This document shows positions 57,961-64,000 of a stretch of 64,000 nucleotides of DNA, one piece after another (within the stretch, counting starts at the first letter, position 1; each line of letters begins with the position of its first letter). The stretch is from contig NZ_SOZD01000002.1 in assembly GCF_004519335.1 (NCBI RefSeq), positions 992,001 to 1,056,000 on the forward strand, in the 5' to 3' direction. Under the pieces are notes generated by a model. That model was not told the DNA's origin, made no database searches, and saw only the letters and a program-made list of their open reading frames with translations. Origin of the DNA: Jiella endophytica (lineage in GTDB: Bacteria; Pseudomonadota; Alphaproteobacteria; Rhizobiales; Rhizobiaceae). The translations under genes and the position numbers were made by a program.

Positions 57961-58611
57961 CTAGAACTCGATGCCCTTCTGCGCCTTCACGCCGGAGCGG
58001 AACGGGTGCTTCACCATCTCCATCTCGGTGACGAGGTCGGCGATGTCGATCAGTTCGTCCTTGGCGTTGCGACCGGTGACGATCACATGCTTGTTTTCCG
58101 GCTTACCCTTCAGAAAGCCGATCACCTCGCCGAGGTCGAGATAGTCGTAGCGCAGGACGATATTCATCTCGTCGAGCAGCACCATGTCGTGCTCCTCGTC
58201 CATGATCAGCGCCTTTGCCCGCTCCCACGCCGCCTTTGCCGCCTGGATGTCGCGCTGACGGTCCTGGGTCTCCCAGGTGAAGCCGTCGCCCATCGCCGTC
58301 ATCGTCACCTGATCGGGAAAATGCTCGAGGATCTTCCGCTCGCCGGTCTCCCACTTGCCTTTGACGAACTGGACGACGCCGACCTTCATGCCGTTGCCGA
58401 GGGCGCGGAAGACGAGGCCGAAGGCGGCGGTCGACTTGCCCTTGCCCTTGCCGGTATGAACGATCAGCAGCCCCTTCTCGATGGTCTTGGTGGCGAGGAT
58501 CTTGTCGCGGGCCGCCTTCTTCTTCCGCATCTTCTCGGCATGGCGGGCGTCGAGTTCGGCCTCGCTCATCCCGTCGGTGATCTTGCTGCGCTCTTGCGGC
58601 CCGTCGCTCAT
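57961..58611 (-). CDS. cobO: Cob(I)yrinic acid a,c-diamide adenosyltransferase
   Basis: A 216-residue adenosyltransferase (CobO/BtuR type) that adds the 5'-deoxyadenosyl group to cobalt in aerobic B12 synthesis. The P-loop is HTGKGKGKST at about 52-61; VGVVQFVKGKWETGE, MVLLDEMNIVLRYDYLD and HVIVTGRNAKDELIDIADLV are the other conserved blocks. The end KHPFRSGVKAQKGIEF is typical. Its start overlaps the GNAT stop by four bases, so it is coupled to the cobN-side genes. Confidence 0.95.
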   Translation of the reverse strand: MSDGPQERSKITDGMSEAELDARHAEKMRKKKAARDKILATKTIEKGLLIVHTGKGKGKSTAAFGLVFRALGNGMKVGVVQFVKGKWETGERKILEHFPDQVTMTAMGDGFTWETQDRQRDIQAAKAAWERAKALIMDEEHDMVLLDEMNIVLRYDYLDLGEVIGFLKGKPENKHVIVTGRNAKDELIDIADLVTEMEMVKHPFRSGVKAQKGIEF

Positions 58612-59060
58612 GCGGCCTTCTCCGGTTGGCTCGGTGTGTCTTGGGAGAGCATCTTGGCGAAGAAGATGCGGCTCTCGCCCTTCGGATAGTCCGGCAGGCG
58701 GCCAAAGGGCCGGTAGCCGAGCTTTTCGTAAAATCCCGGCGACTGGAAGGAATAGGTGTCGACCCAGATGCCGGTGCAGCCTTCTTCCCTGCCGATCGCC
58801 TCCGCCATCTCCATCAGCTGCCGGCCGAGGCCCCGGCCGCGCCAGCGCTCCGGCACCGCGAGGATCTCGATATGCATCCAGTCCCAGTAGAGCTGGGCGA
58901 TCAGGCCGCCATCGGCGCCTATCTCGTCCGTCAGCGCCAGGGTGACGAAGCGCGGCGCGAAGGCGAAATCCTTCTTGGTGGAGAACTCGGCGAGCGGCCC
59001 GACGATGCGGGCGCGAAGGTCGAGATCGGGCAGGGTCAGGCGTTCGATGGTCGGCGTCAT
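58608..59060 (-). CDS. GNAT-family N-acetyltransferase
   Basis: A 150-residue acetyltransferase. The acetyl-CoA loop is VPERWRGRGLGRQLMEMAEA at about 73-92, and SPGFYEKLGYRPFGRLPDYP is the C-terminal motif. It begins MTPTIERLTLPDLDL from the ATG at 59060; the same frame continues upstream but overlaps cobN. It sits between cobN and cobO and overlaps cobO by four bases. There is no known B12 step for it; substrate unknown. Confidence 0.87.
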   Translation of the reverse strand: MTPTIERLTLPDLDLRARIVGPLAEFSTKKDFAFAPRFVTLALTDEIGADGGLIAQLYWDWMHIEILAVPERWRGRGLGRQLMEMAEAIGREEGCTGIWVDTYSFQSPGFYEKLGYRPFGRLPDYPKGESRIFFAKMLSQDTPSQPEKAA

Positions 59061-59091
59061 GAAAGCGTCATGGCGCGGTCGCTGTGCCGCT

Positions 59092-62000
59092 TCAAGTGCG
59101 AAGTTCCGCCCGGGCAGAATTCGAGCGCGGCGACCAGAGGCCGCGCTCGATCGCCTCGGCGAAGCGATCACGGATTTCGCCGAGCGCGGCGGGATTGTTC
59201 GCTTCAAGGAAAGCGCGGACATGATCGTCCATCACGAATGCGTTCCAGGCCGCCTCGAAATGATGGTCGCGCACCGCCCCGGTGGTCGCGGCGAAGGCGA
59301 ACATGTAGTCGACCGTCGCGGCGATCTCGAAGGCGCCCTTGTAGCCGTGGCGCATGACGCCGGCGATCCATTTCGGATTGACGACCCGGGCCCGGACGAC
59401 CCGGCCGATCTCCTCTTCCAGCGTTCGCACCACCGGCCGCTCGGGCCGCGAATGGTCGTTGTGATAGACCACCGGTCGCGCGCCCGAGAGATGTTCGACC
59501 GCAGCCGTCATGCCGCCCTCGAACTGGTAGTAGTCGTCGGAGTCCAGCAGATCGTGCTCGCGGTTGTCCTGGTTCTGGACCACCGCCTCGATGCCGGAGA
59601 GCCGTTCCTCGAACATGCCTCGCTCGGCAGTGCCCTCCGCATCCGCCCCGTAGGCGTAGCTGCCCCAGACGAGATAGCTTTCCGCAAGATCGGCCTTGTC
59701 GTCCCAGCCCTTCTCGTCGATCAGCGCCTGCAGCCCTGCGCCATAGGCGCCGGGCTTCGAGCCGAACACCCGGAAGCCGGCGCGCCGCTCCGCTTCGCTT
59801 TCGTCAGCTCCCGCCTCGATCAGCGCCGCCCTCTCCCGGCGCATGCGCGCGGCGATCGGGTTGTCGGCCTCGTCCTCCTCGAGAGCACCGACGGCGCGAA
59901 CCGCCCGGTCGAAGAGGGCGATCTGATCCGGGAAGGCATCGCGGAAGAAGCCGGAGATCCGCAAGGTGACGTCGATGCGCGGCCGTCCGAGCTCGGCAAG
60001 GGTGACGATCTCGTAGCCGGTGACCCTTCGCGAGGCGCGGTCCCAGACCGGCTTCGCCCCAACCAGCGCCAAGCCTTGCGCGATATCATCGCCGCCGGTG
60101 CGCATGTTGGAGGTGCCCCAGGCCGTCAACCCGAGCGATGTCGGCCACTCGCCCTGGTCCTGCAGGTGCCGGGTGACGAGGAGCTCAGCCGACTTCCTAC
60201 CGAGGCGCCAGGCGGTCTCGGTCGGCACGGCCCGGGTGTCGACGGAATAGAAGTTCCGCCCCGTCGGCAGGACGTCCGGCCGACCCCGCGTCGGTGCGCC
60301 TGACGGGCCGGGCGCGACGAAGCGGCCTGCGAGCCCTTCGAGGAGGCCGGCGATCTCGGCCGGGCCGGAGCCGATCACCGCCGGCTTCAGCTCCGTTTCG
60401 ACCGCGTCGAGAACCGGCCTTGTGGATATCCAGTGAACATCCGGGGGTATTTCACCGGCGATCAGCCTGACTGCCAGGCTCTCCAGTCGCTCGACCGTAT
60501 CGCCCACCGTGCGCCACGGGCTTGTGGACAGATCCGCCAGACGCTGTGGACGAGGTCCTTCCCACGGTGCTGCCATGTCGCAGTCGAGGGGATCGAAGGA
60601 CTTGCTGTCGTCACCAGCTGCGCCGTTACCCCCCTCTGTCCTGCCGGACATCTCCCCCTCAAGGGGGGAGATCGACCCTGGTCCGGCGGAATCGCCCCGT
60701 TCGGATGTTGCCGTGAAGTCTGTAACCTCGGCGCCGCTACCCCCCTCTGCCCTGCCGGGCATCTCCCCCTCAAGGGGGGAGATCGGACCTCGTTCGGCGG
60801 CATCGCCAATACTGCTGACGTCGGCTGGTGCGTTTTCCCAGCTATCAGTTGCGGCCAAAGGCTTTTCAGAAGAAACGCCGCCATCCCCGCCGCCTGATCT
60901 CCCCCCTTGAGGGGGAGATGTCCGGCAGGACAGAGGGGGGTGCCCAGCCGCCACGCCAGAAGGCAGTCCACACAGCCCCAGATCCGCCGCCAGTGCCCGC
61001 ATCAGCGAGGCATCGCCGGGACGCGAGCCGCGAGGAAGCCGCGCCAGCGCCGCCACGAGGTCATGCAGGAGCCTGCCGTCCGGCGAGACGCCGAAGACGT
61101 GCAGCCCGTCGCGGATCTGCATTTCCTTCAGATCGCAGAGATAGGCGTCGAGCTTGGTCAGCGCGCTGTCGTCGGCCTCGCCCGAAACGATGCCGGCGTC
61201 CTGGTCGAGACCGATGTCCCGGACGAGATCGAGGATCTCGGTCTTCAGGAGCGCGAGGCGCCGCGGATCGCCGCCCGCCGCCTCGTAATATTCATCGACC
61301 AGCGCCTCGAGATCCTTCAGCGGCCCGTAGGTCTCGGCCCGCGTCAGCGGCGGTGTCAGATGATCGATGATGACCGCCGACGTCCGGCGCTTGGCCTGCG
61401 TCCCCTCGCCCGGATCGTTGACGATGAAGGGGTAGAGATGCGGCATCGGCCCGAACACCGCCTCGGGAAAGCAGCGCTCCGACAGCGCCAGTGCCTTACC
61501 GGGCAGCCATTCGAGATTGCCATGCTTGCCCATATGGACGACGGCGTCGCAGGTCTCGCGGAGAAAGGCATAAAGCGCCAGATAGTTGTGCGGCGGCACG
61601 AGATCCGGCGAATGGTAGGTCTCCTTGGGGTCGATGTTGTAGCCTCGGGCCGGCTGGATCCCAACAAGGGTATCGCCGAAGCGGGCGAGCGGCAGCGCAA
61701 AAGCCGGCTTACCATCTGCCGCGACGACGAACGGATCGCCCTCCGGCGGCCCCCAGCGGTCAGTCACCGCGCTGCGAAGCTCTTCCGGCAGGCTGTCGAA
61801 AAACCGGCGATAGGTGTCGAGCGGCATCACCTCGCGTATCTCGCGTGCGGCGGTGCCGGCATTGGTCGGCCCGGCCATCAGATAGTCGATCAGGGCGTTG
61901 CCGTTTTCCGGCAGCGTTTCGACCGGATAGCCCGCCGCCTGCATTGCCCTCAGGACCTCGACGGTTCCTGCCGGCGTGTCGAGACCGACGCCGTTGCCGA

Positions 62001-63672
62001 GCCGGCCGTCGCGGTTCGGATAGTTGGCAAGCAATATGGCAACGCGCTTTTGCGGGTTTGGCTTCCGCCGCAGCCGCGCCCAGCGAGTGGCGAGTTCGGC
62101 GACGAAGCGGACACGGCCTGCGACGGCGCGATGGGCGACGATGTCGGTCTCGGTCAGCGCGTCCCAGTCCCCGGCCGACTTGAAGGCGATGGCGCGGGTA
62201 AGGACGCGGCCGTCGAGTTCCGGCAGCGCGACGTTCATGGCGAGGTCCCGCGCCGACAGCCCCTGGCTCGACCCGTTCCAGCCCTCCTCGGAGCCGGAAG
62301 CCAGCACCCCCTGGAGAACGACGGCACCGGTTTCCTCCAGAACGGTCGCCACCCTCTCGGCGCCGGCCCCCGCTGCCGGAGACGAGACGGCAAAGCCGGT
62401 GAGATTGACGACGACATCCGGCGGTCGGCGGGAAAAGAGGCCGCGCAGGGTCTCGACCGAGACGGGGTCCTTCAGGCTCGAGACATAGACGGGCAGAACG
62501 TCGAGGCCGCATTCAGCCATGGCCCTTGCCAAGGCCTCTATAGGCCCCGTCTGGCCGCTCTGGACGAGCGCGCGATAGCAGACGATGGCGGCGAGAGGCC
62601 TTTCGGCGGCGGCGGCGTCCCGGGCCGCAGCCTCCTCACCCCGGGCCTGACCCGGTTCGTCATCCCCTTCTTGGCAAAGGTCGTCATCCCGGGCTTGACC
62701 CGGGATCCATTCCAAACCGTCCTCGCCGCGGCGAGCGTCGCCGGGACCCCCCTCTGCCCCGCCGGACATCTCCCCCTCAAGCGGGGAGATCGGACCTTGT
62801 TCGGCGGCACCGGTCCGCCGCCCGACCGTCGCGACGGGGTTTGAGACCTTGGCGCTGTTACCCCCATCTGCCCTGCCGGGCATCTCCCCCTCAAGGGGGG
62901 AGATCGGACCTTGCTCGGCGCGTGCACCCTCAATTGAAGCGTCGGCAGGCTGCTCAAACCCCTTTTCAGGTAGCTTCAACCTTTCAGAACGGAGGCCGAC
63001 ATTGCCTGCTGCTGATCTCCCCCCTTGAGGGGGAGATGGCTGGCAAGCCAGAGGGGGGTGCTCGTCCGCTGCGGAAGCCAAAAACGCACCACCGTCCCGC
63101 GTAGGGTACCCCGCCTGCTCCGAGAGAGCCGACGGCACCACCCCCGCTTTCAGGAGCGGTGCCGCAGCGCCCGGCCATTCGCCTGTTCCAAGCACCGCGC
63201 GGCAGCCGAGCAAGAACCCCTCGGCATTTGCCGGCCCGCCTTCGATCAGGAACCGCCAGAGCCGGTCACGCTGGTCGAGCGGAATGGTGGTATAGGCATC
63301 CAGCCCCGGATCCGGCTTGTCGTCGCCGGGGATCACCGCCAGCAGGCCTCCCGTCCCTTGCGCATTGGCGAGCAGCGCGTCGAGCCCATAGGGCCAGTAG
63401 GCGGCGCCGCCGAGAAGCCGCACCACCACCAGCTTCGCCCGGCCAAGCGTGCGGGAGACGTAGGTGTCGACCGACATCGGATGCTTGAGCCGCAGGAGAT
63501 TGGCGAGCCGAAGCTCGCGCGGCCCGAGATCCAGGCGGTGCGCCGCCGCCGCCAGCGCGGCGATTTCCGTATCCGCCGCGGACAGAAACACGATCTCCCC
63601 CGGCGACTGGCCGAGATCCACCGCCTCGCCGCCGTCGTCGATCGTTCCCTTCTGGGCGAGAAGAAGATGCAA
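59092..63672 (-). CDS. cobN: Cobaltochelatase subunit CobN, with two in-frame repeat insertions
   Basis: CobN is the large subunit of the aerobic CobNST chelatase, which inserts cobalt into hydrogenobyrinic acid a,c-diamide. The product is 1526 residues; the usual length is about 1250-1280. Typical segments are present: KLVVVRLLGGAAYWPYGLDA, FYSVDTRAVPTETAWRLGRK, SNMRTGGDDIAQGLALVGAK. The excess lies in two low-homology blocks, about 62.6-63.1 kb and 60.6-60.95 kb, built from repeat elements translated as ISPLEGEMSGR or PSPPQGGRS. The frame is intact through both. The start is a TTG at 63672 with AAGGGCG upstream, ten bases after the cobW stop. Confidence 0.93.
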   Translation of the reverse strand: MHLLLAQKGTIDDGGEAVDLGQSPGEIVFLSAADTEIAALAAAAHRLDLGPRELRLANLLRLKHPMSVDTYVSRTLGRAKLVVVRLLGGAAYWPYGLDALLANAQGTGGLLAVIPGDDKPDPGLDAYTTIPLDQRDRLWRFLIEGGPANAEGFLLGCRAVLGTGEWPGAAAPLLKAGVVPSALSEQAGYPTRDGGAFLASAADEHPPLACQPSPPQGGRSAAGNVGLRSERLKLPEKGFEQPADASIEGARAEQGPISPLEGEMPGRADGGNSAKVSNPVATVGRRTGAAEQGPISPLEGEMSGGAEGGPGDARRGEDGLEWIPGQARDDDLCQEGDDEPGQARGEEAAARDAAAAERPLAAIVCYRALVQSGQTGPIEALARAMAECGLDVLPVYVSSLKDPVSVETLRGLFSRRPPDVVVNLTGFAVSSPAAGAGAERVATVLEETGAVVLQGVLASGSEEGWNGSSQGLSARDLAMNVALPELDGRVLTRAIAFKSAGDWDALTETDIVAHRAVAGRVRFVAELATRWARLRRKPNPQKRVAILLANYPNRDGRLGNGVGLDTPAGTVEVLRAMQAAGYPVETLPENGNALIDYLMAGPTNAGTAAREIREVMPLDTYRRFFDSLPEELRSAVTDRWGPPEGDPFVVAADGKPAFALPLARFGDTLVGIQPARGYNIDPKETYHSPDLVPPHNYLALYAFLRETCDAVVHMGKHGNLEWLPGKALALSERCFPEAVFGPMPHLYPFIVNDPGEGTQAKRRTSAVIIDHLTPPLTRAETYGPLKDLEALVDEYYEAAGGDPRRLALLKTEILDLVRDIGLDQDAGIVSGEADDSALTKLDAYLCDLKEMQIRDGLHVFGVSPDGRLLHDLVAALARLPRGSRPGDASLMRALAADLGLCGLPSGVAAGHPPLSCRTSPPQGGRSGGGDGGVSSEKPLAATDSWENAPADVSSIGDAAERGPISPLEGEMPGRAEGGSGAEVTDFTATSERGDSAGPGSISPLEGEMSGRTEGGNGAAGDDSKSFDPLDCDMAAPWEGPRPQRLADLSTSPWRTVGDTVERLESLAVRLIAGEIPPDVHWISTRPVLDAVETELKPAVIGSGPAEIAGLLEGLAGRFVAPGPSGAPTRGRPDVLPTGRNFYSVDTRAVPTETAWRLGRKSAELLVTRHLQDQGEWPTSLGLTAWGTSNMRTGGDDIAQGLALVGAKPVWDRASRRVTGYEIVTLAELGRPRIDVTLRISGFFRDAFPDQIALFDRAVRAVGALEEDEADNPIAARMRRERAALIEAGADESEAERRAGFRVFGSKPGAYGAGLQALIDEKGWDDKADLAESYLVWGSYAYGADAEGTAERGMFEERLSGIEAVVQNQDNREHDLLDSDDYYQFEGGMTAAVEHLSGARPVVYHNDHSRPERPVVRTLEEEIGRVVRARVVNPKWIAGVMRHGYKGAFEIAATVDYMFAFAATTGAVRDHHFEAAWNAFVMDDHVRAFLEANNPAALGEIRDRFAEAIERGLWSPRSNSARAELRT
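60627..60942 (-). repeat. Composite repeat module inside cobN, copy 1
   Basis: Three related units: 60627-60690 and 60738-60801 in one orientation, and 60893-60942 inverted. The core is ACATCTCCCCCTCAAGGGGG or close variants, with an internal hairpin. The unit spacing (111 and 155 bases between unit starts) nearly equals that of the second module. On the cobN strand it is translated in frame. Confidence 0.9.
62681..62711 (+). repeat. Palindromic repeat (ATCCCGGG...CCCGGGAT type) inside cobN
   Basis: CGTCATCCCGGGCTTGACCC followed by GGGATCC; on the cobN strand it reads WIPGQARDD. It is the same palindromic class as 36241-36271. A degraded relative lies at about 62640-62666. Confidence 0.85.
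62745..63061 (-). repeat. Composite repeat module inside cobN, copy 2
   Basis: Units at 62745-62808 and 62858-62920 in one orientation, and 63013-63061 inverted. Unit starts are 113 and 155 bases apart. The spacers also resemble those of copy 1 (for example ACCTTGGCGCTGTTACCCCC against ACCTCGGCGCCGCTACCCCC), so the two modules are paralogous. Confidence 0.9.
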
Positions 63673-63682
63673 GTCCGCGCCC

Positions 63683-64000
63683 TTATTCGGCTGCGGTGTG
63701 GGGGACCGCAGGGGCCTCGCCCGCCGCCAGCGAACGGATGCGTCCGTCGATCGCCGTGCAGACCGCGTCGATCAGCCCGTCATGGAGGCCGATGACGACG
63801 AGCCGCGTCGCCCGTTTCTCGTCTTTGCCCCAGGGCCGGTCGAAATAGGTCTCGATGCGCTGGCCGACCGCCTGGACGACGAGGCGCATCGGCTTGCCGG
63901 GAATGTCGGCAAATCCCTTAAGGCGAAGGATGTCGTGCTCGCCGATCAGATCCTTCAGCCCGTCGACGAAGGCGGTCTGGTCGAGGACCGGGCCGGCATT
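63683..64000 (-). CDS. cobW: CobW, C-terminal part (gene runs off the window edge)
   Basis: The last 105 residues of a CobW-type G3E GTPase/metallochaperone are visible: LIGEHDILRLKGFADIPGKP and RLVVQAVGQRIETYFDRPWG, ending PAVPHTAAE. CobW is thought to supply cobalt for cobalamin synthesis. The P-loop end lies outside the window. It is just upstream of cobN, ten bases away, so the two are probably one operon. Confidence 0.93.
   Translation of the reverse strand, partial: NAGPVLDQTAFVDGLKDLIGEHDILRLKGFADIPGKPMRLVVQAVGQRIETYFDRPWGKDEKRATRLVVIGLHDGLIDAVCTAIDGRIRSLAAGEAPAVPHTAAE

Follow-up and report, generated by a model that had tools for sequence, protein, structure and literature searches.

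Palindromic elements in frame at two repeatedly filled sites of CobN in Jiella endophytica and related bacteria

Two blocks of added sequence in cobN

We analysed a window of 64 kb from the Jiella endophytica genome (5.25 Mb in 28 contigs), in which cobN was read as one uninterrupted open frame. Its product belongs to CobN by profile search, with 1603.5 bits against the TIGR02257 profile (cut-off 822) and 1247 bits against Pfam PF02514. As the reference for excess length we used the solved CobN 9uk9 (1263 aa), which has neither an S1 nor an S2 block. Residues 1-178, 350-900 and 1024-1525 of the Jiella protein aligned with residues 1-177, 191-743 and 745-1246 of 9uk9, and the extra residues are confined to two points, S1 (about 158) and S2 (about 122). 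A preliminary description of this DNA had proposed an uninterrupted cobN frame with about 270 excess residues in two blocks, and both parts of this proposal were borne out; the boundaries, which it suggested should be marked by aligning CobN sequences, fall at S1 and S2 both against 9uk9 and against the orthologues. The features are as follows.

59092-63672, minus strand: cobN, cobaltochelatase subunit, 1526 codons, TTG start (open reading frame, profiles and 9uk9 alignment)
62626-63138, minus strand: S1 insert, residues 179-349 (171 residues), replacing 13 residues of 9uk9 (9uk9 alignment, residues converted to window coordinates)
60604-60972, minus strand: S2 insert, residues 901-1023 (123 residues), replacing 1 residue of 9uk9 (9uk9 alignment, residues converted to window coordinates)
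62746-63059, minus strand: S1 module, 314 bp, three 46-nt units
60628-60941, minus strand: S2 module, 314 bp, three 46-nt units
63014-63059, minus strand: S1 unit C, residues 205-220
62860-62905, plus strand: S1 unit B, cobN residues 256-271
62746-62791, plus strand: S1 unit A, cobN residues 294-309
60896-60941, minus strand: S2 unit C, residues 911-926
60739-60784, plus strand: S2 unit B, cobN residues 963-978
60628-60673, plus strand: S2 unit A, cobN residues 1000-1015
62683-62709, plus strand: second, unlike palindrome inside S1, GTCATCCCGGG type

The gene thus holds six 46-nt units, four direct and two inverted, each with two hairpins. The 23-nt core of the unit (up to 3 mismatches) was found six times in the window, always inside cobN, compared to a mean of 0.00 in 100 shuffles. 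As had been proposed, the units follow the same order in both modules and are all in frame, with identical codon phases at S1 and S2. The proposed module lengths of 316 and 317 bases were correctly near-equal, but both modules measure 314 bp; likewise, the unit spacings given as 111/155 and 113/155 were right to within a few bases, the measured distances between unit starts being 111/157 in one module and 114/154 in the other. The view that the blocks are made of palindromic elements holds for the three-unit module in each, whereas the S1 block also contains a different palindrome (62683-62709) and other added sequence. This unlike palindrome (GTCATCCCGGGCTTGACCCGGGATCCA) occurs once in the window, within S1, and its peptide PGQARDD is also present at S1 of two congeners (L112 and L004).

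Inserts recur at S1 and S2 across the family

We searched 151 genomes of the family, a group that probably includes species of Rhizobium, Ensifer, Phyllobacterium and Pararhizobium, with the repeat-free CobN residues 360-895 as the query. A CobN match was present in 100 of them. In 80 (the Jiella genome included) it was at least 57% identical over the match, and the other 79 CobN sequences, four of them cut by contig ends, were aligned with the window as the orthologue set. The remaining 20 matches, 40-45% identical and in frames of 1112-1185 aa, were taken as another CobN subfamily and left out. All internal inserts of at least 12 aa among the 79 lie at S1 or S2, with the exception of one 25-aa insert at residue 606 in a single sequence. 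S1 is at least 35 aa long in 19/79 CobN and S2 at least 20 aa long in 23/79; one or the other is long in 27 (both in 15, S1 only in 4, S2 only in 8), and neither in 52. This joint occupancy gives a Fisher p of 2e-7 with kinship ignored. The preliminary description had left room for repeat-free orthologues of the same length; instead, we found orthologues that lack the blocks at exactly S1 and S2.

The CTCCC..GGGAG core is present at S1 or S2 in 21/79 CobN and absent from six of the 27 length-positive sequences. Its density was 3.6 per kb at S1 and 5.5 at S2, whereas the remainder of the frames had 0.03 and the flanking DNA 0.06. Nine cores had been counted in this remainder; on inspection, five of them precede the start, two border S2 and two belong to an S1 cut by a contig end, so that of the 71 cores in the frames of the 79 CobN none lay elsewhere inside CobN. 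On a tree of the CobN core with 80 rows, occupancy changed at least 12 times at S1 and at least 14 times at S2, gains and losses being counted together. The peptides at the two sites represent several palindrome families by eye: ISPLVGEMSGRTEGG with PPSVLPDISPTRGEI, SPRLRGEGARRADEG, PSPTPPHKGEGL and PGLEPGS..WIPAQGRDD. S1 and S2 are therefore two sites of CobN that have been filled repeatedly, and by more than one family of palindromes. In each of the 79 family CobN the best frame spans both sites, and no second piece exceeded 60 bits. In an order-wide sample, 124/150 genomes had a CobN match, with frames mostly of about 1230-1280 aa or in a shorter group near 1100-1150 aa, and some longer.

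We also inspected 80 named CobN loci. As they are the 80 best matches to a query that itself contained the repeats, prevalence was estimated without them. The frame is broken at S1, S2 or both in three of them (L091, L052 and L098); in L091 and L052 the breaks fall inside the element, where a sequencing error in G/C runs is possible. In a fourth locus with a broken cobN frame (L100) the break lies away from S1 and S2. In one congener, cobN (G001:C1:1940792-1944675) is split into several frames, possibly from errors, as this genome is 84% complete in 3 contigs. In cobN of Jiella sp. LLJ827 (L031), S1 and S2 share another repeat peptide, HPGLEPGS..WIPAQGRDD.

Was one module copied between S1 and S2?

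We asked whether the two modules arose by copying within the gene, as the preliminary description had suggested from the likeness of their spacers. The spacers are indeed alike, with 41/65 (z 5.7) and 70/102 (z 7.1) identical positions over letter shuffles, whereas the 60-nt outer flanks show no likeness (z 0.6 and 1.0). Among 17 other site sequences the best match of the S1 site was its own S2 (74% over 357 columns), and among 41 other interiors the best match of each was its partner (z 7.4 and 7.2). However, a z of at least 7.2 was also reached by at least 8/780 other element pairs of the genome, and BLAST at E 0.1 did not pair the S1 and S2 interiors. Their likeness is therefore diffuse, as it appears in global alignment versus shuffles alone and not in BLAST. 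In six aligned congeners S2 has a two-unit form, while S1 lacks this element in three and has a two-unit form in three; the order of one unit followed by two opposite units was absent from S1 and S2 of the aligned congeners, although L041 and L115 have other multi-unit arrays.

One copying event of the module within the gene is probably the simplest account of these sequences, although it is not proven: the mutual best matches and the differing flanks stand for it, the equally similar genomic pairs and the lack of a BLAST pairing against it. The three-unit module would then have been copied between S2 and S1 in the Jiella lineage; taking S2 as the source is guesswork, prompted by its being occupied more widely in congeners. 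The alternative, that the modules are independent insertions or grew independently from one genomic element, is possible, if the less probable of the two. It draws on the genomic pairs with equal z, on congeners in which S1 or S2 carries other two-unit elements whose ends are similar, and on Phyllobacterium leguminum, where the interior identity between S1 and S2 (0.74) falls in the range of identities with copies in the genome (up to 0.70 for S1 and 0.79 for S2). It does not readily explain why both three-unit modules agree in length, order and phase, with spacers that align and flanks that do not, nor why this three-unit order was unseen at S1 or S2 of the aligned congeners. Across genes, own S2 ranked first in 5/14 (permutation test, 0/20000 as high), and we do not generalise the copying within the gene, since kinship and genome-specific element types confound this test.

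Architecture of the element and its genomic copies

The Jiella genome contains 130 cores at up to 2 mismatches, that is 124 beyond cobN, while the reversed core pattern had no match in this genome at the same threshold. Together with the orthologues that lack the blocks at S1 and S2, these further copies support the earlier view of an in-frame insertion resembling Rickettsia palindromic elements (RPEs). We took 53 stretches around the first 100 of the 130 cores, and these and the window yielded 115 units (up to 3 mismatches) in 60 clusters, of which four lay too close to a contig end to judge. Facing units are usual, with core starts about 105-116 bases apart, so that the element in this genome consists of a unit, mostly 80-90 bases (range 27-146) and an inverted unit. 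In P. leguminum (L042, G308; 3.7 Mb) the element has undergone a strong expansion, with 276 exact cores versus 5 to 66 in four other genomes; the R. leguminosarum genome of L036 has 5. There, 20/20 copies consist of a unit, 65-69 bases and an inverted unit; the units are near-identical and the interiors have a mean identity of 67%. Two Jiella elements about 645 bp apart (L225:2160-2320 and 2805-2965, G000:C23) have interiors 98% identical and different flanks, and look like a recent local copy.

With 46-nt terminal inverted units, a typical length of about 157-180 bp and no transposase gene, the element shares these features with MITEs. RAYT (Y1_Tnp, PF01797) had 0 matches in the Jiella genome, which is 97% complete, and the control was positive in 5/14 genomes. 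Neither GTAG nor CGTC was seen as a tetranucleotide at the unit ends in the unit alignment, judged by eye. Rfam returned no match on the modules at E 0.1 (positions 58000-64000); a sub-threshold match to RF01681 lies outside them, at 63527-63598.

The element inside other genes

Most copies in the Jiella genome lie outside any gene confirmed by profile. We tested ten candidate genic clusters by profile and found the element in frame inside a PcrA/UvrD helicase (L200), GlyS (L213, where it separates the catalytic part from DALR), BchB (L215) and IleS (L238). With the two cobN clusters included, at least 6/60 clusters lie in frame inside profile-confirmed genes, which answers the earlier call to count genic units across the genome. 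At L235:2195-5584 (G000:C25) the element lies between OppC and OppD domains in one stop-free open frame, and the two genes may therefore be fused through it. Five candidates were left out as unproven: L197, L208, L225 and L242 had no family match (the L225 frame looks non-coding by eye), and L233 had GcrA matches below the cut-off only.

Frame lengths in the family range from about 700 to 1062 aa for GlyS and from about 750 to 1130 for UvrD, with cut and fragmented frames excluded. In a hand-picked GlyS set of 14 long and 6 short frames, which speaks to recurrence and not to prevalence, palindromic inserts (by eye) follow residue 345 in 7/14 long frames, residue 477 in 7/14 and residue 633 in 11/14, and none was seen in the six short frames. 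Inserts that seem to follow residue 598 were left uncounted, as they resemble ordinary protein or a misalignment. The copies in other enzymes and the recurrent sites of GlyS suggest that CobN is one case of a wider habit.

The units are conserved while the interiors drift

Eight Rhizobium CobN with one common S2 element served as the sample for selection. Synonymous sites differed little in the units (pS 0.076 and 0.09), whereas pS reached 0.43 in the interior and 0.44-0.52 in flanking cobN; dN/dS was 0.57 in the interior versus 0.03-0.07 in flanking cobN. Thus, even though they lie in a coding gene, the units accept few changes, synonymous ones included, and the interiors drift.

The stem of hairpin 1 was compared in 114 full-length units from the stretches taken from the Jiella and P. 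leguminum genomes. The commonest forms were TG-CCC/GGG-CA (44), TCC/GGA (32) and GCT/AGC (12), followed by GGC/GCC (7), CCT/AGG (5), GGT/ACC (3), GCC/GGC (1) and otherwise single variants. In the 42 distinct units used for covariation, 98.4% of cells are paired. Both sides have changed in 33 cells (10 in the best slid version), and the paired share, this count and the covariation score all exceeded 500/500 shuffles; two of the five measures lay within the shuffles, at 273/500 for the number of pairs changed on both sides and 428/500 for that of further pair types. The pairing and the compensatory changes indicate that the hairpin structure is kept, as DNA or as RNA. Helix 2 is fixed by the search pattern, and its constancy is therefore not evidence. 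Template-switch correction between the arms could yield the same compensatory picture without selection.

Across 145 distinct CobN (of 160), the inverted unit is read in the ISPLVGEM-type frame in 94 cases versus 2 in the other open frame, and it avoids the stop-containing frame; the direct unit uses its frames 60, 28 and 1 times. An account by element insertion leaves this uneven use of frames unaccounted for.

Predicted structure of the inserts

Residues 1-640 and 561-1240 were modelled with AlphaFold2 from 47 aligned rows each, at a mean pLDDT of 73 and 67, respectively. Residues 188-317 and 903-1022 have a pLDDT <50 and no helix or strand, and lie between better modelled elements; other stretches, e.g. 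750-782, are also low, and a low pLDDT at columns common to few aligned rows is no proof of disorder. The first structural match of the 561-1240 model was Mycobacterium tuberculosis CobN 7c6o (E 1.3e-26, TM 0.45). As RNA, the modules are predicted to fold very stably (z -10.8 and -5.4, 0/100 shuffles each).

Proposed origin of the blocks and its alternatives

We consider it likely that the blocks are a MITE/REP-like, non-autonomous palindromic element that was inserted repeatedly and in frame into two permissive loops of CobN. The element would have the 46-nt two-hairpin unit at one end and its inverted copy at the other, around a variable interior of mostly about 65-110 nt, and a genic copy would be tolerated where the frame is kept and the loop can take extra residues. 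The S1 and S2 loops would have been filled repeatedly in the family, by this element and by other palindrome families, and the insert peptides are probably translated and retained as unstructured linkers in an active CobN. The units may stay palindromic because the element can move only if a hairpin forms, or through template-switch correction between the arms, with homogenisation among copies. A bolder and quite tentative extension is that fixed permissive loops in large enzymes of the family, those of CobN and GlyS and possibly also of UvrD and IleS, serve as standing ports for palindromic elements. A DNA-level process without RAYT (hairpin-dependent copying, or conversion between copies, within one gene too) would hold the hairpin units constant. 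If so, conserved enzymes would receive near-neutral, unstructured segments at the same positions time and again from a hairpin-based system.

Alternatively, the inserts could have been co-opted: the peptides or the mRNA hairpins would have a role in CobN or in regulating cobN, for example as targets of RNase III, and selection would maintain the inserts at the sites. The very stable RNA folds, the joint filling of S1 and S2 (kinship ignored), the biased frame use and the conservation of units at synonymous sites would all fit. Nevertheless, we regard co-option as unlikely, since most of the 79 family orthologues have no inserts, the interior dN/dS is high, and the units are conserved also in copies elsewhere in the P. 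leguminum genome. Removal or skipping of the blocks at the level of RNA or the ribosome, leaving them absent from the protein, is suggested by the long perfect inverted repeats in the mRNA and by the three frames broken at S1/S2 among the best 80 named loci (possibly sequencing errors), and appears very improbable: skipping would free the frame and permit stops, yet the 79 family CobN read across the sites and the inverted unit avoids its stop-containing frame. Error-prone G/C runs and the frame breaks in some relatives might speak for a gene in decay or for an artefact of sequencing or assembly. This reading can hardly be entertained, because the frame is intact, about a quarter of the positions differ between the S1 and S2 modules, like inserts occur in independent assemblies, and identity to the nearest family members is 69-83% over the core that separates the sites.

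Relation to known palindromic elements

Rickettsia is the best known source of in-frame palindromic insertions. RPEs are described as short palindromic elements that lie in frame in conserved protein genes and also between genes (PMC10969869, PMC2229807). The element inserted into CobN is like them in both respects and in being read as an unstructured extra peptide, with many genomic copies of which some are in frame in protein genes. It probably differs in its sequence, and it differs in its free-living hosts and in that paired 46-nt units fill the same two points of one enzyme across a family. GTAG/CGTC REPs are likewise reported as paired palindromes, some within open reading frames that include UvrD/REP helicase and tRNA synthetases, a likeness of the REP/REPtron system to our element (PMC3733652); here, however, the units end in neither tetranucleotide and the genome is without RAYT. 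MITEs, as described, have terminal inverted repeats, no transposase of their own and a length of 70-300 bp (PMC10969869, PMC2229807). Our element shares the inverted ends, the shortness and the lack of a transposase, and is set apart from MITEs in general by near-identical ends with interiors that diverge to about 67%. RIME of Rhizobium and Bru-RS1/2 of Brucella are named as palindromic repeats of the same bacterial order, RIME as intergenic.

The kind of element is therefore known from the RPEs, and what is new is its recurrence at fixed sites of CobN across a family. Recurrence at one site was foreshadowed by recB, which is reported to carry REPs at about the same site in two Xanthomonas (PMC3733652). 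In the literature searched (PMC2267715 and PMC2245857 included; subscription papers were mostly beyond reach), we found no description of palindromic elements in CobN, of the unit core or its commonest peptides, or of insertion sites fixed across a family. The loci amount to a replicated natural experiment, in which two loops of a 1250-residue enzyme were filled many times by unlike elements in free-living relatives, and as these bacteria can be grown, two questions become testable: how the palindromes are kept perfect, and whether the extra peptides are produced and have any effect. For annotation, CobN and GlyS length outliers may be products of insertion.

The Jiella genome also encodes a distant CobN/BchH-like paralogue (G000:C22:55552-58422; 33-37% identity, frame of 1279 aa), and this BchH-like protein and BchB (L215) suggest that the organism may make bacteriochlorophyll.
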